From: a virus
Length of the DNA stretch: 64,000 nucleotides
Direction: 5' to 3' (one strand)
Virus record (IMG/VR): IMGVR_UViG_3300009636_000004
Location: 1 to 64,000 of that record
Shown: positions 8,261 through 49,891 of the stretch, one piece after another
How the letters are laid out: every line of letters starts with the position of its first letter
How positions within the stretch are numbered: the stretch's first letter is position 1
Made by a program: the position numbers and the translations under genes
Notes under the pieces: model-generated
What the model saw: the letters and a program-made list of their open reading frames with translations, nothing else
The model's database searches: none
What the model was told of the DNA's origin: nothing

Positions 8261-9751
8261 TTAATTTAATCGCAATCGGAAAAACATAGATGGACCAGAT
8301 ATAGAATTAGTTACAGTATATTGACCTTCAATAATAGCAGGAGAATTAGTAGAAACGACATTCCATACTGCAGTTGGAGCCAAACTTGGAGTAGATTCCA
8401 ATATAAAGCTGCTTGAAACATTAGCTGCTGGTCCCCATGTCAAAATCACATAATTAGAAACATTTGTAATATTGAGAGTTAGTAATACAGGTTGATATTG
8501 AATTGCCTCATATAATCTAAAAAACATTTGTTTGTTAACAGTTGGTAGAATTACAGTATAATTTCCATTAGTAATGGTTGGAGTATTGGAAACAATGTTC
8601 CAGTGTGAAAGCAATAAGTTTGTGGTGGATTCCAATATGAAATTTGAAAAATTAGTTGACCACTCCAAAATTATATAATGATTGGAAATATTTATGGTAA
8701 GAGTTGGTGAAGAGACTAAATTGAGTAAAAATCCGTCACTTTGACCCGAAGGATTAGTGCCCCAGCCGATAATTTGTCCATTATCATTGATAGCAATGGC
8801 ATAGTGTAAATACCATCCAGAATTAGTTGAAATTAATGAATTAAGATTAAATAATTCACTACCACTGTATAAAAAGGCACTTGATGTAGGTGTCACTCCG
8901 GATATGGGGATAGGATCTATATAGGAATATCCTACAATCTGATTTTTGTTATTAATACTATTTGCTATACTTACCCATCCACCTAATGTACCTATATCAA
9001 CCATTTTATTACTATTAGAATTCCACCACAAAGCATGTGAAATGCCGGGAGGAACACTACAACCAACAATTTGATTTTCATCATTGATACTATATGCTGT
9101 GCTACCGTTAAAAGGGACAGGAAAACTTAAATCTGTCATCCTATTACTATTAGATAAAAATGCATGTGAATTTCCACTTGAAGGAAAGGATTCACCAACT
9201 ATTTTACCGCTATTATTAATACTATATGCTCTACTGTCAGTATCAGTGGGATTAATAAGTCCTAAATTAATCATCCCGCTTTTACTACTCCATAAAAAAG
9301 CACGCATGAAAATGGGACCATTTGTTGTTCTTATTTGAGAATAGCCGACCACTTGGTTACTATTATTAATACCATCTGCTTGGCTATCCATATCAGAACC
9401 ACCTAAAGTTCCCAAATCAATCATTCCGGAATTGCTGCTCCATAAGAAGGCATGAGTTATAGAGCCGTTCGGTGGTATATAACTATAACCAACCACCGTT
9501 CCGTTATCATTAACACTACATGCTGTGCTACTATAAGGACTGCCGGGCAGACTCCCTAAATTAGTTATAGTGCCATCACTATATCTTAAAAAAGCACTAC
9601 CAGACATCTCACCAACAATTTGACCTTCATTATTAATAGCGTATGGTGCGCAAGGTCCTAAATCTACAATGTTATATAATTGAGCGGTGGAGAACTGAAT
9701 ACTTCCAAAAAGTGTTATTTGGAATATTATTCCGATAAACAATTTTTTCAT
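8261..9751 (-). CDS. Exported HAF-repeat protein (496 aa)
   Basis: A signal peptide (KKLFIGIIFQITLFGSIQFSTA) is followed by about seven HAF-type repeats to roughly residue 340. Each carries an INN.G.IVG.S core and an AFLWSS..GM.DLGTLGG-type segment. Two C-terminal modules follow, each built around FILESTTNL...W..V and ending FFRL. HAF repeats are known from extracellular bacterial proteins and probably form a beta-propeller-like fold. The W..V....FFRL modules are common in Verrucomicrobiota secreted proteins. In a phage this looks like cargo acquired from a host or a surface-binding protein. The function is not known. Confidence 0.8.
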   Translation of the reverse strand: MKKLFIGIIFQITLFGSIQFSTAQLYNIVDLGPCAPYAINNEGQIVGEMSGSAFLRYSDGTITNLGSLPGSPYSSTACSVNDNGTVVGYSYIPPNGSITHAFLWSSNSGMIDLGTLGGSDMDSQADGINNSNQVVGYSQIRTTNGPIFMRAFLWSSKSGMINLGLINPTDTDSRAYSINNSGKIVGESFPSSGNSHAFLSNSNRMTDLSFPVPFNGSTAYSINDENQIVGCSVPPGISHALWWNSNSNKMVDIGTLGGWVSIANSINNKNQIVGYSYIDPIPISGVTPTSSAFLYSGSELFNLNSLISTNSGWYLHYAIAINDNGQIIGWGTNPSGQSDGFLLNLVSSPTLTINISNHYIILEWSTNFSNFILESTTNLLLSHWNIVSNTPTITNGNYTVILPTVNKQMFFRLYEAIQYQPVLLTLNITNVSNYVILTWGPAANVSSSFILESTPSLAPTAVWNVVSTNSPAIIEGQYTVTNSISGPSMFFRLRLN

Positions 9752-20460: not shown

Positions 20461-20488
20461 ATTCTACCACAACTATAAAAAAAGTCAA
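20461..20488 (-). promoter_or_regulatory. Promoter for gene at 20451
   Basis: -35 TTGACT, 16-bp spacer, -10 TAGAAT. The -35 contains the stop codon of the AAA/M41 gene. Confidence 0.7.
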
Positions 20489-22419
20489 GCGTTGTGTTTT
20501 TTGCGTGGTTTGGAAAGTCTTTTTGAGTTAAGAAATTTCTTTGAAAGCTCTTCATAATCAAGCATTAGTTTTTCTCCACTTTTAACTTCTTTCACAGAAA
20601 TACCAAAATTCATTGCAATTTCTTCAAATTCTTTCGGAGAAATTTTACCTTTTTCCATAAGTGTTCCAAGAGCAGTTTGATAAAATTTGAGATTTGTATG
20701 AAGAAGGCTTTTTGCTTGTTCTTTTGCTTCTTTTAACAATGATTCAGTAATTTGACCAATTTTTTCACGGTCAAAAATTTCAAATTCATTGTCATTACTT
20801 TTAGATGTGATGGCGCCACAAAAATCGCCAAATCCATAACGACCAACATAACTCCAAGCTGCGCTAGTTGCATTTTCAATATCTTTTGCAGCACCTGCAC
20901 TAGCAAATGTTTCACCAAATACTATTTCTTCTGCTGCTCTTCCAGCCATTCCTACCGTTAATTTTTTTAAAAGAGTTTCTTTGTTTTCCATCATTGCATG
21001 ACGAAGGATAAATCCATTAGAATACGATGTGATTGAATCCGTGCAAATCTGTGCAGGAACAGTATTAAATAATAAAGTGTAAACAACTGCGTGTCCCAAT
21101 TCGTGAACTGCCACAACATGGCGTGAATCTTCATCAATTTTTTCACGGAGAGATTCCAGCACGGTAGGAATTTCTATAACGATTTTTTTCCTCTTAAATA
21201 TACCAGTCATTTTATTACCGTGGCAAGTTACTCTCAATAAAGTAGCATCATCCAATAGGCAATTATAAATGTAATTAGGTAATACAGATGAAAGAATATT
21301 GGTAATTGTTGAAAGCAATGGTCTAACGCCTTGTGTTGGGAATACACCATTCTTATAAATTGTCTCAAATACAGAATCATGAAATTGAATTTTAATACCT
21401 TTGGTTGAAGTAACTAAATCACCAATTTGGTTGCATTTCATCTTAATAATTTGATAATAATTCTTTTTACTTAACGAAGGATACAAAATGTGAGTATTAC
21501 CAAAACGAGCAATTTGTTCGGGACGAAATCTCTTGGTTAGTGCGTTTTTAATATCCAAAACGGTAATTCTTTTACTATATTCATGATACCAATCAGCATC
21601 TAAATCAACTTCGTCAACATCCTTTGCAATTTTATAAGCTTCATCCAAATTACCTGAAACTATAATAAGCAGTTTTTTGTATATTTCACCCTCAAAAATT
21701 GTAGGGTTTTTAGAAAATCTTTCGTATAGGTCACAAATTTGGTCCTCACTATATTTCATGATTTCTTCAACAGAATCTTCCAATTTAAAAAGACGTTTTA
21801 CGCGACGAGCCAAAGAAACGCCAGTTTTGTATATTCTTTTACTTTCTTTAGCTTCTTTCTTTTTATCTTCTTTTTCATCATGGTAAACACGCTCATAATC
21901 AGCATAATATTTACTGTAAAGAAGTTCACTAAGGAGTTCAGTTTTCTTGCTTAAATCAGCATGAAACCTGCCATCACTTAATAATGTCCATACATCTGAA
22001 TAAGCTCTGTTTTCTGGAATTTGTTCACCTTGTTCTGTAATGGTTCTAAATTTTTGAAATTCATCCAAGAAAAGAATACATGGTTCTTCTGGGGAAAGTG
22101 AAGATTCTTCCATTTTTCCTTGAATAGTAATTGATGTAGAATCATTGCCATTCATTTCAATTTCAAGAAATCTATCCTGCATCCGAATGTAGGATACCAT
22201 TTTACGAACCAAATCAGTTTTACCTACGCCAGTAAGCCCCCATAGGCATAGGATGGTGGGTCTAATTTGTAGTTCTGGAAAAATATACCAAACTTTTATA
22301 CTTTCAATAACTTGGTCAACAACATCATCAAGACCAATGAAATCCTTTTTTAACTGTATTCTTAAATTATCTAACTCTTCTTGTTTCTTTTTGATTAAAG
22401 ATAACGTTGCAGTGTCCAT
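20485..22419 (-). CDS. AAA+ ATPase fused to M41 (FtsH-type) metalloprotease (644 aa)
   Basis: Residues about 25-400 form a Clp/HslU-like AAA+ ATPase, with Walker A GLTGVGKT (61-68), Walker B CILFLDEF (114-121), the C-terminal small domain RFRPEQIARFGNTHILYPSL and GVFPTQGVRPLLSTI. Residues about 430-600 form an M41 peptidase: zinc-binding HELGH (439-443), GMAGRAAEE, and the third ligand Asp513 in GAAKDIENAT. Cellular FtsH has N-terminal membrane helices and an FtsH-type AAA module; here there is no membrane segment and the ATPase is Clp-like, with a charged insertion (EKEDKKKEAKESKR). It probably unfolds and degrades specific proteins in the cytoplasm. Substrates are unknown. Confidence 0.85.
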   Translation of the reverse strand: MDTATLSLIKKKQEELDNLRIQLKKDFIGLDDVVDQVIESIKVWYIFPELQIRPTILCLWGLTGVGKTDLVRKMVSYIRMQDRFLEIEMNGNDSTSITIQGKMEESSLSPEEPCILFLDEFQKFRTITEQGEQIPENRAYSDVWTLLSDGRFHADLSKKTELLSELLYSKYYADYERVYHDEKEDKKKEAKESKRIYKTGVSLARRVKRLFKLEDSVEEIMKYSEDQICDLYERFSKNPTIFEGEIYKKLLIIVSGNLDEAYKIAKDVDEVDLDADWYHEYSKRITVLDIKNALTKRFRPEQIARFGNTHILYPSLSKKNYYQIIKMKCNQIGDLVTSTKGIKIQFHDSVFETIYKNGVFPTQGVRPLLSTITNILSSVLPNYIYNCLLDDATLLRVTCHGNKMTGIFKRKKIVIEIPTVLESLREKIDEDSRHVVAVHELGHAVVYTLLFNTVPAQICTDSITSYSNGFILRHAMMENKETLLKKLTVGMAGRAAEEIVFGETFASAGAAKDIENATSAAWSYVGRYGFGDFCGAITSKSNDNEFEIFDREKIGQITESLLKEAKEQAKSLLHTNLKFYQTALGTLMEKGKISPKEFEEIAMNFGISVKEVKSGEKLMLDYEELSKKFLNSKRLSKPRKKHNA

Positions 22420-23871: not shown

Positions 23872-24067
23872 AACAACAAATGTAAAATGTAGTAAGTGTG
23901 GTGCTAATAATACAATACCTACAGATATAACAGATAACGGTCTTTTTCAAAGATTCTATTATACTTGTTGGTATTGTGAATGGAACTACGCATATATAAA
24001 ATGTTTAGAAAAAGATGAACAAATCCCAAATATTTGTAGTAACTCCAACCCCAAAAGGATTGGATAA
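23861..24067 (+). CDS. Zinc-ribbon protein, GTG start (68 aa)
   Basis: The frame opens with GTG overlapping the MazG-like stop. It has CSKCGANN near the N-terminus and CWYCEWN about 25 residues later, forming a two-knuckle zinc ribbon. Its 3' end overlaps the phosphatase gene by 53 bases, so its C-terminus or start could be misjudged. Confidence 0.5.
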   Translation: MKNKTTNVKCSKCGANNTIPTDITDNGLFQRFYYTCWYCEWNYAYIKCLEKDEQIPNICSNSNPKRIG

Positions 24068-24542
24068 CATTCTATCAGTTAAGCCAGAACTTATTAATCA
24101 ATATTATTGTGCTGTTGTTAATGTATCAGACAGTGTAGGCGCTACTTTTAATTATCAAAAAGTAGGTATTCCTTCCTTTTGGTTTCCTATCAAAGAGATA
24201 GGTAGGTGGGATTATTCTCCTTTCTTTGGAACTTTGAGAGTTGTTAATGAATATTACAAGGGGGACAAACCTGTTCTAATTCATTGCTATGCTGGACGTA
24301 ACCGTTCTCCATCCATAGCTTATGCAATTCTTTTGGCTAAAGGATATACATCCGAAGAAGCAGAAGAATCTATTCAATATAAAGGAATATCCAAGCGTTT
24401 TCATGATAATATAGAAAAAAAATGTATTCCGCAAAATATTATCGATTTTCTGCGAAAAGCGGATGAAAAACGATTTAATACCATATCTTTAAAGGGGGTT
24501 TTGGAAAATATGGATTATTTATATAAAGAGTCATTACAATAA
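24015..24542 (+). CDS. Dual-specificity/tyrosine-type protein phosphatase (175 aa)
   Basis: The CX5R active-site loop is HCYAGRNRSPS, with nucleophile Cys91 and Arg97. The general-acid region is probably the Trp/Asp segment GRWDYSPF (Asp66). A helical C-terminal part follows (YTSEEAEESIQYKG). This is the fold of dual-specificity phosphatases, which remove phosphate from Tyr/Ser/Thr or from RNA 5' ends. The partner is unknown; the window also encodes a protein kinase and a PP2C phosphatase around 51-54 kb. Confidence 0.8.
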   Translation: MNKSQIFVVTPTPKGLDNILSVKPELINQYYCAVVNVSDSVGATFNYQKVGIPSFWFPIKEIGRWDYSPFFGTLRVVNEYYKGDKPVLIHCYAGRNRSPSIAYAILLAKGYTSEEAEESIQYKGISKRFHDNIEKKCIPQNIIDFLRKADEKRFNTISLKGVLENMDYLYKESLQ

Positions 24543-40528: not shown

Positions 40529-41962
40529 TCATCTTTGTGTTGGTTCTGCTCCAGCTTCAACATCGAAGCCAAATTTTTTGATTAATTTCATTTCTTGTTC
40601 TGTGAATTTTGTTTCTTTCCCCGAAAATCTAGCACATATAAATGCGTAAAGATGAGGATAATCTTTATTTCTAAGTTTGACATAATTCACAAAATTATCC
40701 CAATTACGACAATAGGTAATACCATAATTACCTACCATACAAAATTGAATAAGAGCATCACAAAATTCTATTGCCTTAAAAAATGATTCTCGTTTGAGTG
40801 TTCCTTTGAAAATTCTAAATTCAATAGTATCATGATTGACAAGATTAACAGCTTCATATCTGTCACTGCGAGACAGTGTTCCGATGCGTTTAACTGTTCC
40901 GTATTTCTTTTTGCAAATACAGGAATAGTTACATGACCTTCTGCCAGCAATTGTTTCAATATGTGGTTGATTATTTTCATCATTCACGAATACCACAATT
41001 TTTGCTATAGTGAGAAGTGATAGAGGTTTCTTTGAACAGTGGATATGAAGACCACAATTACCTCTTTCACTGTTAAACGAAACCAAGTTATCAGGTAAAT
41101 TGTCAAAAAATTTATTCCAGCGAACAAGGTGTTCTTCCTTGGATGCTGGCTGTGTGCAAATTTCAAAGCCGCAACTTAAACTGCCATCTTCTTTCACAAT
41201 AGCAAAATCGCCAAATAAATCAATAACTTTTTGAGCTTTCACACCACGTTCCTCTTTGCTTTTATTTTGAACTTCAACTTCTAGTTCTATACCGTAATAA
41301 TGAGGCGGCTTACCTTGAAACTCAATTTTAGGTTTTTCTTCGTATGTGGTTATTGGGCCATAATAATTGAAACATTTATCGCATACTGAATATTTCCCCC
41401 TGATTTTGTGAGTTATTTTGTCTTTTTGGAAAGTGTTATTACACATAGGGCAAATCTTAAAAGATTTGTCAAAACATATCTTGCAGTAAATATTTTCCTT
41501 GTAAGTAAGAAAGTCTTGCCTGTTAAAGAATTTATGACAACAAGAACATTCTCTATAATTTACAGTAAAACAACGAAGACAAACGTTAGTTATGTTTAGG
41601 TCATTCTTTTCAGATATGCGATTTACTTCTTTTGATTCATTTTTATTATAAAGTTTATTACAACAAACACAAGTAATATAATGTTCTTTTGCACATTTGT
41701 CACATACCAAAGATTTATCTCCCATTATTTGAAATGAAGAATGAGCATCTAACTTTGTATGACAGCAGTTGCATTCTCCCGTCAATGTTCCGTTAAGGAT
41801 ATTATCTCTTCTACAAGCTGGGCAATCACAAGGCATTATATTCTCTTCTTTGATAAAAGTTTTTTCAGACGTATTTTCAGCCCGAATATAGTTGTCAGAA
41901 CTTTCTGGCATTGGTATTGGTTCGGTGAAAATTGATGTTGAATTTGGGTCTATGGTCGGCAT
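40529..41962 (-). CDS. Amidoligase with N-terminal zinc-ribbon array (477 aa)
   Basis: Residues about 45-215 carry at least five treble-clef/zinc-ribbon CxxC pairs (CPACRRD, CNCCHTK, CDKCAKE, CVCCNKL, CSCCHKF, CKICFDK, CPMCNNT, CDKCFNY). The catalytic amidoligase domain follows: YYGIELEVEV, VKEDGSLSCGFEICTQP, GNCGLHIHCSKK and DTIEFRIFKGTL. This is the glutamine-synthetase-like COOH-NH2 ligase fold. The zinc array probably binds the substrate protein or a nucleic acid. First gene of the operon with the second GATase II. Confidence 0.85.
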   Translation of the reverse strand: MPTIDPNSTSIFTEPIPMPESSDNYIRAENTSEKTFIKEENIMPCDCPACRRDNILNGTLTGECNCCHTKLDAHSSFQIMGDKSLVCDKCAKEHYITCVCCNKLYNKNESKEVNRISEKNDLNITNVCLRCFTVNYRECSCCHKFFNRQDFLTYKENIYCKICFDKSFKICPMCNNTFQKDKITHKIRGKYSVCDKCFNYYGPITTYEEKPKIEFQGKPPHYYGIELEVEVQNKSKEERGVKAQKVIDLFGDFAIVKEDGSLSCGFEICTQPASKEEHLVRWNKFFDNLPDNLVSFNSERGNCGLHIHCSKKPLSLLTIAKIVVFVNDENNQPHIETIAGRRSCNYSCICKKKYGTVKRIGTLSRSDRYEAVNLVNHDTIEFRIFKGTLKRESFFKAIEFCDALIQFCMVGNYGITYCRNWDNFVNYVKLRNKDYPHLYAFICARFSGKETKFTEQEMKLIKKFGFDVEAGAEPTQR

Positions 41963-43999: not shown

Positions 44000-45277
44000 T
44001 TATTTACATTCAAGAAGATGTGTAATGTTTACACGATTGTTAGCGTAAACAATCAATTCGTCATGATTAAGGCCGGTATTTGCCACAGTTGCCCAAATAC
44101 TATCATAACCTAATGGTGGGCGCGAACAATTTCCGTAACCTCTAGGATAATGAATTTTACCCATAGCAAATTTACAAATAAACAACCAACCAGCTTCACC
44201 TGTTGATTGTCCCCATCTTCCATAAGTGTATCCCAACGATTTACTTGAGTTAATAGCTCCGTAAACACCATTACCCCACATTTTACCGGCAATAGCTGCG
44301 GTTGAAGGCGGACTGGTTCTAAGGCCACTTTTTAGAATACTTAAACAATTTGCTTCAGATGTTCCATGAAAAACTTCCTTTGGATTATCAGAAATAAATG
44401 CGTTGTCCATTTCGTGAACTTTGATTTTGAATATATTACGAACTTTGATGCGATCATATCCGTGCATCCTGTTCTTGGAAGTTTCAAACCAACGTTCAAG
44501 GCGATTTGCATCGGGACCATTTTCAACATCAAGGTCAACTTTGAAAACTTGTTCAATAGTTGTTTTGTTGTCAGTTTTCTTTGAAGTATCAGCTTTTGGT
44601 TTAGTAATGGCTGCGTAAGATGCTTCAAGAGCATCAAGAATATCGTTTTGTTTCTGAATAGCAGTAACGTCAGGAAGAATTCTTCTAACATCAAATTTCA
44701 TACCTATACTTTGAGGAACTAAGCGAAGATAATCACTGACAAGCTTATCAAGTTGGTCATTATATCTGCTATTTTTGACAAATGGAACTGTATCTGCTAA
44801 TAAACTTCTTGCCTCAATAATTGCATCAGGAGTTACGATTCCCAAGGGAGTTTGGAATAATCCTGTAGTATCATTTAAAGTAATATTTGTGGTTGATGTA
44901 ATTTTATGAACATTTGATTTGACAAGACGTTCAATTAATTTATCAAGAATAGGACTACCTGAACTTCTGATAATTTGAGATTTGGCAATTTCATGAAGAT
45001 TACTAACTGCAACGGTAGGTGGTCTGGCAGATGCGACGGGTGTTGATGCATCAATGACTTTAGCTTCTGTATAACCTTTTGCTAATTTTTCCCCGATTTT
45101 CTTTTCCATGAAAGACTTGCCTACACCAGAAAAAGTCTTTGATTGAGGGTCATTGCCCACTCTTGCCCATTTTGTAACCACATCGTCATTATCATAAAGA
45201 ATAACTTCCCACCATTTATTATGATTGGCTTGAGCTTCTGCCCAAATGAATTTCTTTGATTCAATAATGTTTGCCAT
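44000..45277 (-). CDS. WGR-domain poly(ADP-ribose) polymerase-like protein (425 aa)
   Basis: Residues about 1-75 are a WGR domain (WWEVILYDNDDVVTKWARVG, with WAR at 37-39 in place of WGR). Residues about 90-225 resemble the helical PARP regulatory domain. From about 255 the ART catalytic domain has the full H-Y-E triad: His304 (VFHGTSEAN), Tyr350 (SSKSLGYTYG) and Glu407 (LNHDELIVYA), plus GKMWGNGVYGA. It should transfer ADP-ribose from NAD, releasing nicotinamide. PARP-1-type proteins are rare in bacteria and phages. The zinc fingers and BRCT domain are absent. Its own promoter puts the ATG about three bases from the start site. Confidence 0.9.
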   Translation of the reverse strand: MANIIESKKFIWAEAQANHNKWWEVILYDNDDVVTKWARVGNDPQSKTFSGVGKSFMEKKIGEKLAKGYTEAKVIDASTPVASARPPTVAVSNLHEIAKSQIIRSSGSPILDKLIERLVKSNVHKITSTTNITLNDTTGLFQTPLGIVTPDAIIEARSLLADTVPFVKNSRYNDQLDKLVSDYLRLVPQSIGMKFDVRRILPDVTAIQKQNDILDALEASYAAITKPKADTSKKTDNKTTIEQVFKVDLDVENGPDANRLERWFETSKNRMHGYDRIKVRNIFKIKVHEMDNAFISDNPKEVFHGTSEANCLSILKSGLRTSPPSTAAIAGKMWGNGVYGAINSSKSLGYTYGRWGQSTGEAGWLFICKFAMGKIHYPRGYGNCSRPPLGYDSIWATVANTGLNHDELIVYANNRVNITHLLECK

Positions 45278-47792: not shown

Positions 47793-48731
47793 TTATTTAC
47801 AAAATTCGCTTATATGAGCAAATTTAAATCCACATCGTTCTGCAAATGTTCTGTCAGTTGTTTGGTCGCCCACCATAATACAATCAGAGGGGCACAGTTT
47901 GTATTTTTCAATAAAAATTGCTCCCATACCGACATGCGGTTTTCTACAATAGCAAGATACAGGAGGAATACTGTGTTGGCAATATAAAAAGTCAACTTTG
48001 ATACCAAGTTGCCGGTTCGTTTCCTCAAAACATTGAACTGCCATATCCTCTGAAATAATTCCTTTGGCAATGCCTGATTGATTTGATGCTCCAAGAATAA
48101 TAAATCCATTATCTTCTGCTTCTTTCACAATATTGGTCATTTTAGGATTTACTTTAATTTCTGAAAGTTTCGTTGGATAATCATATTCTCCAAGACTTTC
48201 ACGAAGAACACCATCATAATCCAAAATAATAGCTTTATGCTTGTATTGAGCCGGCCAAATTCTTTTGAAAGGAACTTCAATTATTTCATCAAACCCTTCT
48301 TCGGTTGTAGGTGGTTGAAATATTTTTCTGTAATGAAAAAGAGCTGCTGGTGGAAAAGCATTTGGGTCTTTCAATTTCTTAAAATCGTCTGGGCCGGGAA
48401 GTATTCCATATTTCCTAATCATCCGAAGGCAAACATTTAATTGTGCTTCTTCAAGAGAAGTAGTCAACCAATGACAGGTGATTTTGGCTCGTAATTGTTT
48501 TGCCAATTTAATGATAGAAGAACGGCTTTCTCTTGTTGGATAGGTATTATCAAGAACAACCTTTTCAACGCCATTAACAAGAGCATCTTCTACTATTTCT
48601 GTTTGGCCTTTAATACTACCACCTGTCATATCACGGTTAATTCTTTGATAATCGTCTTTGACAAATTGTTCAACCAATGTGCTTTTACCAGCAGCATTGA
48701 TACCCATTACTATGATAATGTGTTTACTCAC
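47793..48731 (-). CDS. Polynucleotide kinase-phosphatase (312 aa)
   Basis: The N-terminal kinase has Walker A GINAAGKST (10-18) and a lid region (CLRMIRKYGILPGPDDF). The C-terminal HAD phosphatase has DYDGVL (Asp171, Asp173, with Val replacing the usual Thr), SNQSGIAKG and GDQTTDRTFAERCG. This is the T4 Pnkp order (5'-kinase then 3'-phosphatase). It prepares RNA ends for the RNA ligases encoded at 7, 26 and 31 kb. Its start overlaps the pncB stop by four bases, so it is translationally coupled to NAD salvage. Confidence 0.9.
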   Translation of the reverse strand: MSKHIIIVMGINAAGKSTLVEQFVKDDYQRINRDMTGGSIKGQTEIVEDALVNGVEKVVLDNTYPTRESRSSIIKLAKQLRAKITCHWLTTSLEEAQLNVCLRMIRKYGILPGPDDFKKLKDPNAFPPAALFHYRKIFQPPTTEEGFDEIIEVPFKRIWPAQYKHKAIILDYDGVLRESLGEYDYPTKLSEIKVNPKMTNIVKEAEDNGFIILGASNQSGIAKGIISEDMAVQCFEETNRQLGIKVDFLYCQHSIPPVSCYCRKPHVGMGAIFIEKYKLCPSDCIMVGDQTTDRTFAERCGFKFAHISEFCK

Positions 48732-49891
48732 AGAATTCCCAACTGTTTTTTAACTGATTGAATTGATTCTGACTTTCCTGTATGTTTTCCTTCATCATCA
48801 GAAAGTTTTACTACATCAACCCATCCTTTACCAAAATTAGCCCGTGTCATTTTAATAACCATATTAAGAGGCTTGACACCAACATCGTTGGTAAGATTTG
48901 TTCCAATACCACCAACAGGTTGAGCTACACTTTGAAAAGTTTTTGCTAATTCAATGTATTTTTCAACATTAAGATTATCTGAAAATACAAATCGTTTATT
49001 GGTTGTCAAAATTCCCAAATTTTGATAATGTTTTAACATTCTATATCCCCATTCTTTGGGATTTCCACTGTCTTGACGAACTCCATCAAATAGTTTTGCT
49101 TCAAACATTTCAAAATCATTTAAAAACATTTCGGTAGTAAATGTATCAGTTAATGCTACACCAAGAGCACCACCAAAATGTTCACTCCAGAGTTTTACCC
49201 ACATTTTATTAGCCATTCTGACTCCATATAAAGCTGACATAGCCATTATACATTCATGAGCATAAGTTCCTTGTGGAGTGACACCATGCTTCATTGCTAA
49301 ATGAGGATTACTTGTTCCAAGAAATCCCTTGTAGTTTTTCATTATTTCTACAACTCTGTCTTGGACTTCATACGAATAACGTCTGCGTGTTCCAAAATCA
49401 ATCCAATAACATCCGTTATTTGAAAGTTTTTTGGCTTTCTCAATTATTCTAAGATACCAGAGATTTATTTTTTCTTGGTTAGTTATTAGAAAATATAATT
49501 CAGAAATAATAGCCATGAGTTTGACTTCCCAAAAAATGGTGCGATACCAAGGCCCACGGATTTTAACTTTGAGATCGCCACCTTCTTGGCTAATTTGAAC
49601 TTCATCAGGATACATCGTGTAACCTAATAACCATTCAGCGTAAGTAGGACGAATATAAGGAATGGTTTTGAGCCATCTTTCTTCTTTTTTGGTCAAACGG
49701 AGCCAAGTTAATTCATGGATTTGGTGATTTAATTCTTCGGCAAATCCTTCGGGAAAAGGCGTTTTTCCACGGTTGATAAATTCGTATTCAACTTCAGCAT
49801 TTGGGAAGTTGTGAAATACCACACTGCCCATAGTGAGCTTATACCAATCGTCATCCAACATCGAAATAATTATAGGTCTGTCAACAATCAT
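48728..49891 (-). CDS. pncB: Nicotinate phosphoribosyltransferase (387 aa)
   Basis: It converts nicotinate and PRPP to nicotinate mononucleotide (Preiss-Handler pathway). The sequence follows bacterial PncB closely: SMLDDDWYKLTM, LKVKIRGPWYRTIFWEVKLM, YWIDFGTRRRYSYEVQDR, FLGTSNPHLAMK..VTPQGTYAHE, GVALTDTFTTEMFLNDFE, DGVRQDSGNPKEWG, FVFSDNLNVEKY and GIGTNLTNDVGVKPLNMVIK. The YKLTM, DFGTRRR and LTD...F motifs argue for PncB rather than nicotinamide phosphoribosyltransferase (Nampt). First gene of a pncB-Pnkp-x-prs operon; the -10 ends 6 bases before the ATG. Confidence 0.9.
   Translation of the reverse strand: MIVDRPIIISMLDDDWYKLTMGSVVFHNFPNAEVEYEFINRGKTPFPEGFAEELNHQIHELTWLRLTKKEERWLKTIPYIRPTYAEWLLGYTMYPDEVQISQEGGDLKVKIRGPWYRTIFWEVKLMAIISELYFLITNQEKINLWYLRIIEKAKKLSNNGCYWIDFGTRRRYSYEVQDRVVEIMKNYKGFLGTSNPHLAMKHGVTPQGTYAHECIMAMSALYGVRMANKMWVKLWSEHFGGALGVALTDTFTTEMFLNDFEMFEAKLFDGVRQDSGNPKEWGYRMLKHYQNLGILTTNKRFVFSDNLNVEKYIELAKTFQSVAQPVGGIGTNLTNDVGVKPLNMVIKMTRANFGKGWVDVVKLSDDEGKHTGKSESIQSVKKQLGIL

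Follow-up and report, generated by a model that had tools for sequence, protein, structure and literature searches.

A Clp-type AAA+ module with its own M41 peptidase in jumbo phages and Burkholderiales: a probable soluble protease family

The window, that is, the whole stretch of 64,000 nucleotides analysed, is part of a virus record of 101,789 bases (IMGVR_UViG_3300009636_000004) and is contained whole, at 100% identity, in a 365-kb contig (G001). Given that this contig also carries a terminase, the source of the window is taken to be a jumbo phage. On the minus strand lies an open reading frame without an internal stop, which codes for an AAA+ module followed by a peptidase of the M41 family and is here called Clp-M41 (Table 1). 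No terminator-like sites were found near this gene, and promoter-like sites are not in excess there. Other genes of the window are listed in the same table; among them, the gene for nicotinate phosphoribosyltransferase (NAPRTase) lies about 3.5 kb from a PARP-like gene, and the two possibly form a pair for the supply and the use of NAD+.

Table 1. Features of the Clp-M41 gene, of its window and of related contigs. Positions refer to the window unless a contig is named.
Feature	Position	Strand	Residues	Remarks
Clp-M41 gene	20485..22419	(-)		644 aa; ATG start; stop codon at 20485-20487
N-terminal AAA+ part	21940..22419	(-)	1-160	helix 3-26, P-loop core, WxLLSDG segment
Pfam AAA			57-136	26.0 bits, cut-off 21.2
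Walker A GLTGVGKT	22216..22239	(-)	61-68	G61, G64, G66, K67 invariant, 34 members
Presumed pore-loop-1 region	22120..22158	(-)	88-100	short; putative functional role
Walker B ILFLDE	22060..22077	(-)	115-120	D119, E120 invariant
Family-specific insert	21679..21954	(-)	about 156-247	mainly helical in model
Sensor-1 Asn257	21649..21651	(-)	257	invariant
Arg305, Clp arginine-finger equivalent	21505..21507	(-)	305	invariant; FRPEQIARFGN vs FRPEFLNRIDE (ClpB reference)
ClpB_D2-small (PF10431)	21265..21474	(-)	316-385	37.8 bits, cut-off 21.9
Sensor-2 Arg366 in TQGVRP	inside ClpB_D2-small domain	(-)	366	invariant
Peptidase M41 domain	20617..21138	(-)	428-601	Pfam 78.2 bits, cut-off 29.9
HELGH zinc-binding/catalytic motif	21091..21105	(-)	439-443	H439, E440, H443 invariant
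Asp513, third-zinc-ligand equivalent of FtsH	20881..20883	(-)	513	invariant; role by analogy with FtsH
DUF3466 match	8261-9751	(-)		62 bits
Dual-specificity phosphatase-like protein	24015-24542	(+)		in short plus-strand gene block
Putative amidoligase (Amidoligase_2)	40529-41962	(-)
Phage PARP catalytic domain	44000-45277	(-)		WGR and PARP regulatory-domain similarity
NAPRTase	48728-49891	(-)
tmRNA gene, window's phage	L116:388-791 = G001 260,388-260,791	(+)		Rfam 103.6 bits; tag ANLNRLVNADFAFEVNTFEEVAVAA
Bacterial class A RNase P RNA	L400:11343-11641	(+)		G971, 379-kb phage contig with terminase; among tRNA genes; Rfam 142.3 bits, cut-off 100
Possible bacterial small SRP RNA	L323:4795-4890	(-)		G965 phage contig; marginal, 40.9 bits, cut-off 40
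Clp-M41 region of Aquabacterium	L149:3152-13791			read from sequence

The earlier note described this protein as a Clp-type AAA+ module fused to an M41 peptidase, a reading that the Pfam domains and the trees described below bear out. The motifs on which it had relied are all present, namely GLTGVGKT and RFRPEQIARFG (residues 297-307) for the Clp-like part, and HELGH and GAAKDIENAT (from G509) for the peptidase. The NCBIfam models of ClpB and ClpA match over the small AAA domain, while the FtsH equivalog model matches the M41 part only, with 67.8 bits, and does not reach its cut-off of 600. Walker A and B, sensor 1, the arginine finger, the sensor-2 GxR and the ClpB_D2-small domain are found on the AAA+ side, although two members of the family (L253 and L124) fall below PF10431, and HExxH with a distal zinc-binding aspartate is found on the M41 side. 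When conservation was judged across 34 diverse phage and bacterial members, K67, D119, E120, N257, R305, R366, H439, E440, H443 and D513 were the same in all 34. The two AAA rings and the M-domain of an Hsp100/ClpB disaggregase are absent from this chain of 644 residues with one AAA module. The highest 19-residue hydropathy is 1.18, versus 2.09 and 2.18 in the host FtsH proteins used as positive controls, indicating that there is no transmembrane segment and that the N-terminal anchor of the FtsH type is absent, as the earlier note had proposed.

Two further IMG/VR contigs code for an identical protein and a third contig, from a second phage, carries an ortholog that is 72-73% identical, which argues firmly that the gene is not a product of chance or of faulty assembly. 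A frameshift or an assembly chimera is rejected because the same fusion is found in many independent contigs and in named isolate genomes. Between the orthologs the dN/dS is 0.085, a rough value with the synonymous sites near saturation. The insert, with a dN/dS of 0.138 versus 0.05-0.08 for the AAA core, is less conserved, and the M41 domain retains 74% identity.

The AAA+ part departs from its Clp relatives mainly around the central pore. Compared with the ClpB, ClpA and ClpX references, pore loop 1 lacks the GYVG, is of short length and differs from member to member, with no conserved aromatic residues. In the 39 members compared, an insert of 82-181 residues separates the DG(R) segment from sensor 1, where ClpB D2 has about 13; it takes the position of the pre-sensor-1 hairpin of ClpB, or pore loop 2. 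In the AlphaFold model (mean pLDDT 82.9, pTM 0.75) the AAA part resembles ClpB NBD2, with a TM-score of 0.67 by target length and an rmsd of 5.4-5.6. The whole chain aligns to FtsH across both domains with a high rmsd, which suggests that the two domains of Clp-M41 may be placed differently relative to each other. Motor complexes with FtsHi are also among the structure matches, and a full-length match with a high TM-score was not found in the viral structure library.

The separate phylogeny of each domain, which the earlier note had suggested, was obtained with quick trees for which the support values are SH-aLRT only. In the AAA tree (84 rows), 51 Clp-M41 sequences form one clade (100) that groups with the D2 domains of ClpV, ClpA and ClpB, while FtsH forms a separate clade (100), so that the AAA part stands outside FtsH. 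Because long branches meet here, the exact sister group is unsure, and it is the separation from FtsH that is relied on. The M41 tree, being unrooted, gives no direction of descent between FtsH and the peptidase; in it, a branch (97) separates FtsH from every Clp-M41 sequence. A diverged FtsH is rejected by the AAA tree and by the motifs, RPGRFD being absent. Two groups of phage FtsH-like proteins (L034, L035, L037 and L071; L096, L097, L101 and L102) were also seen to be without RPGRFD; their Walker A reads GESGNGKT or GPSGTGKS, and their representatives fall with FtsH in both trees.

Set against the known systems, Clp-M41 shares with FtsH, i-AAA and m-AAA proteases (MEROPS M41) a single chain in which the peptidase follows the AAA+ module, the HExxH and the aspartate that provides the third ligand, but its AAA module is not of the FtsH type, it has a large insert before sensor 1 and it lacks the membrane anchor. 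The nearest group in the AAA tree is the D2 domain of ClpA, ClpB, ClpC and ClpV, with which it shares the HCLR type, the arginine finger, the sensor-2 GxRP and the ClpB_D2-small domain. Unlike these, it has a single ring with no D1 or N-domain, and it carries its own peptidase rather than docking ClpP. Lon is likewise a soluble, single-chain HCLR protease, but with a serine/lysine peptidase domain and an AAA module from a different clade. Jumbo phages are also known to encode FtsH itself (PHROG 30773; Pseudomonas phage PA5oct and Microcystis phage MaAM05), but those proteins have an ordinary FtsH AAA domain (TIGR01241, 550.9 and 839.6 bits). No description of the Clp-M41 fusion was found by term among 5.39 million open-access papers, and the main texts of PMC7824862, PMC13282480 and PMC13037316 make no mention of FtsH or M41.

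Earlier scans of viral sequences with narrow patterns had returned close copies only, and it was a scan led by the M41 motifs that then exposed the wider family, with other phage contigs of the same domain order amid ordinary phage FtsH genes. With the Clp-M41 alignment, 79 viral loci were obtained, of which 67 are relatives over the full length or nearly so, while the other 12 match in the M41 part only; after removal of near-copies about 53 phage contigs carry the gene, many of them from jumbo phages, with contigs of up to 548 kb. When the whole protein was compared by tblastn with 50,697 phage records, the matches were to the M41 part of FtsH-like proteins and none covered 80% of the query, and the AAA part gave five weak matches.

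The gene is not unique to phages, an idea rejected by a scan of GTDB genomes in which 220 stretches encode a relative. Among the 80 matches listed, 79 are named as, or compatible with, Burkholderiales, including Variovorax, Acidovorax, Polaromonas, Comamonas, Roseateles, Ramlibacter, Cupriavidus and others; the exception is a 1-Mb genome bin (L122) whose sequence clusters with viral ones and which may be a misbinned phage. One copy (L189) is part of a finished chromosome, that of Comamonas sp. B21-038, and a search for plasmid carriage of the Cupriavidus gene gave no match. For one Variovorax, the motif EQ[IV][AS]R[LF]GN was sought in 201 genomes of its family, where 19 have it and the reversed control pattern gave no match, and in 399 genomes of its order, where 3 have it. 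One of these three (G254) was rejected as a carrier, as it reads EQMASFGN, a chance match due to the degeneracy of the pattern. HMM searches of 300 and 398 genomes gave one and two matches; as only three or four first-look candidates per genome were scored, paralogs of the FtsH and Clp kinds may have displaced the gene, and these low counts are not taken as evidence of its absence. Separate, ordinary FtsH genes are also present in the carrier bacterial genomes that were checked. The earlier note's view of the cellular M41 proteases, each with an FtsH AAA domain of its own, is contradicted by these Burkholderiales genomes, which carry the Clp-M41 architecture. In an Aquabacterium (Table 1) the gene sits between rtcB-rtcA-like genes and a run of NAD-metabolism genes, and its neighbours differ in the other Burkholderiales.

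The two domains appear to have travelled together. Their pairwise distances are correlated (r=0.855), a value reached in none of 2000 permutations (best 0.262), which is as expected for one ancient fusion inherited as a unit. The independent domain shuffle of the earlier note thus holds in that the combination is separate from FtsH, but it gives way to one ancient, shared fusion that is not special to the phage of the window. In the AAA tree, the Burkholderiales sequences with two viral sequences as their sister (100) lie within a 17-row clade that is otherwise viral (99). The M41 tree alone does not recover its ten bacterial rows as a clade, but when these rows are kept as one group the fit is better than in the free search (p-AU 0.904). 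Because the bacterial genes nest within the viral clade, Clp-M41 probably passed from phages to the chromosomes of Burkholderiales.

Some indication of the role of the protein comes from its neighbours. In four related phage contigs (L245, L253, L254 and L256), dnaK and then dnaJ lie directly downstream on the same strand, the DnaK matching HSP70 with about 640 bits, and in L264 the pair lies a few genes downstream. DnaK is encoded in 7 of 37 carrier contigs and is absent from the phage of the window. This adjacency is moderate evidence, in one clade, for a role in protein quality control.

Translation genes are frequent in jumbo phages, and the phage of the window encodes 53 tRNAs, one of them called as tRNA-Pyl (cta). 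Among the eight large genomes examined, all of them Clp-M41 carriers, seven have a tmRNA by Rfam, including that of the window. The tmRNA has the standard form in G001, G003, G963, G965 and G966 and is permuted in G969 and G975, while in G971 none was called by ARAGORN, the Rfam scan there covering 80 kb. SmpB is encoded in three of these genomes. Most of the tags end in A-hydrophobic-A(-A), the ends read being VAVAA, VAVA, AVAA, AIAA, AIA, AFA and AQAA; those of G963 and G965 were read by hand rather than called by ARAGORN. RNase P RNA and a possible SRP RNA were also seen in such contigs (Table 1). Chaperones are already known in large phages (PMC12619734), and tmRNA with SmpB in huge phages (PMC7162821). 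The link between tmRNA and Clp-M41 is thus a lead, since tmRNA may simply accompany genome size. Taken with the chaperone genes, this context favours protein quality control over an anti-defence role. Against such a role of Clp-M41 stands that in G969 and G975 the degraders could be proteins like ClpA and ClpX, which these two carriers encode as well.

We consider that Clp-M41 is most likely a new family of AAA+ proteases, with members that would act as cytosolic unfoldase-metalloproteases. The reading as a whole, to which we give a probability of roughly 0.6, is that of a soluble, cytosolic and probably hexameric AAA+ zinc protease, derived from one ancient fusion that went from jumbo phages to Burkholderiales, whose job in the phage is most likely protein quality control. 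The architecture, the invariance of the catalytic residues, the missing membrane helix, the phylogeny, the co-inheritance of the domains and the gene neighbourhoods are computed results, while the hexamer, ATP-driven threading, proteolysis and the substrates are inferred. By what is established for HCLR motors and FtsH, Clp-M41 chains would form a homo-hexamer, its ring, of the HCLR type and kin to that of ClpA and ClpB D2, unfolding the substrate and threading it into a chamber lined by the M41 active sites of the same chains; motor and peptidase would thus share one chain as in FtsH and Lon, without a membrane anchor. Ring assembly and ATP hydrolysis are expected because the arginine finger and the sensors are invariant, proteolysis because the zinc ligands are, and a cytosolic location because there is no membrane anchor. 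The large insert at the site of pore loop 2 may gate or select substrates. Since GYVG is missing and the aromatic residues of the pore loop are not conserved, threading could be weak or different, and the missing GYVG is the strongest reason for caution on this model. Translation in such a phage is a very large load, and Clp-M41 would clear those of its products that misfold or stall, in some cases beside the DnaK/DnaJ, tmRNA and SmpB of the phage.

The earlier note had assigned the protein to the degradation of host or defence proteins, for which no direct support was obtained. Such a protease, destroying chosen host or immune proteins during infection, would agree with a jumbo-phage survey that treats phage ClpP and ClpS in that light (PMC7824862), and the less conserved insert could be an adaptor or substrate site. 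It is nonetheless unlikely, given that no defence or takeover gene was seen recurring beside Clp-M41, where the recurrent neighbours of clear function, in one clade, are dnaK and dnaJ, and that the conserved Burkholderiales copy fits a housekeeping use better. Less probable still is a machine of virion assembly, with the motor remodelling virion proteins and M41 cleaving them. Jumbo phages are known to process their heads extensively by proteolysis (PMC13282480), and a 651-aa open reading frame less than 5 kb from Clp-M41 in L253 has the same length and position as the Terminase_6N match in G985, but the bacterial copies have no virion to build and the terminase of G001 lies far from the gene (335 kb vs 200 kb). 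It is very improbable that the M41 part is vestigial or structural in a non-proteolytic remodeller, as the match to FtsHi, whose subunits are inactive, and the degenerate pore loops might suggest, given that HExxH and Asp513 are invariant in the 34 diverse members and M41 is 74% identical between orthologs.

Quality control thus being the preferred role, a wider form of it can be put forward, although it is rather improbable in its full extent. In it, Clp-M41 would be a self-contained AAA+ protease of bacteria, of a class so far unrecognised, that arose in jumbo phages and was later domesticated by Burkholderiales. For the phage it would be the destroying arm of a virus-encoded quality control with tmRNA and DnaK/DnaJ. 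The tmRNA of the phage, with SmpB in some, would mark stalled products with a phage-specific tag, the DnaK/DnaJ of some phages would hold misfolded proteins, and Clp-M41 would degrade both classes.

The ATP-dependent proteases of cells are of few well-known kinds, namely ClpXP, ClpAP and ClpCP, HslUV, Lon, FtsH and the proteasomes. The fusion of a soluble HCLR motor with M41 would be another natural solution for ATP-dependent proteolysis, suggesting that M41 can pair with a different AAA+ motor and work without a membrane. As a soluble M41 enzyme, Clp-M41 may also be easier to study. It would be an AAA+ protease common to giant phages and bacterial chromosomes, and with it, whether giant phages have protein quality control of their own becomes a testable question.
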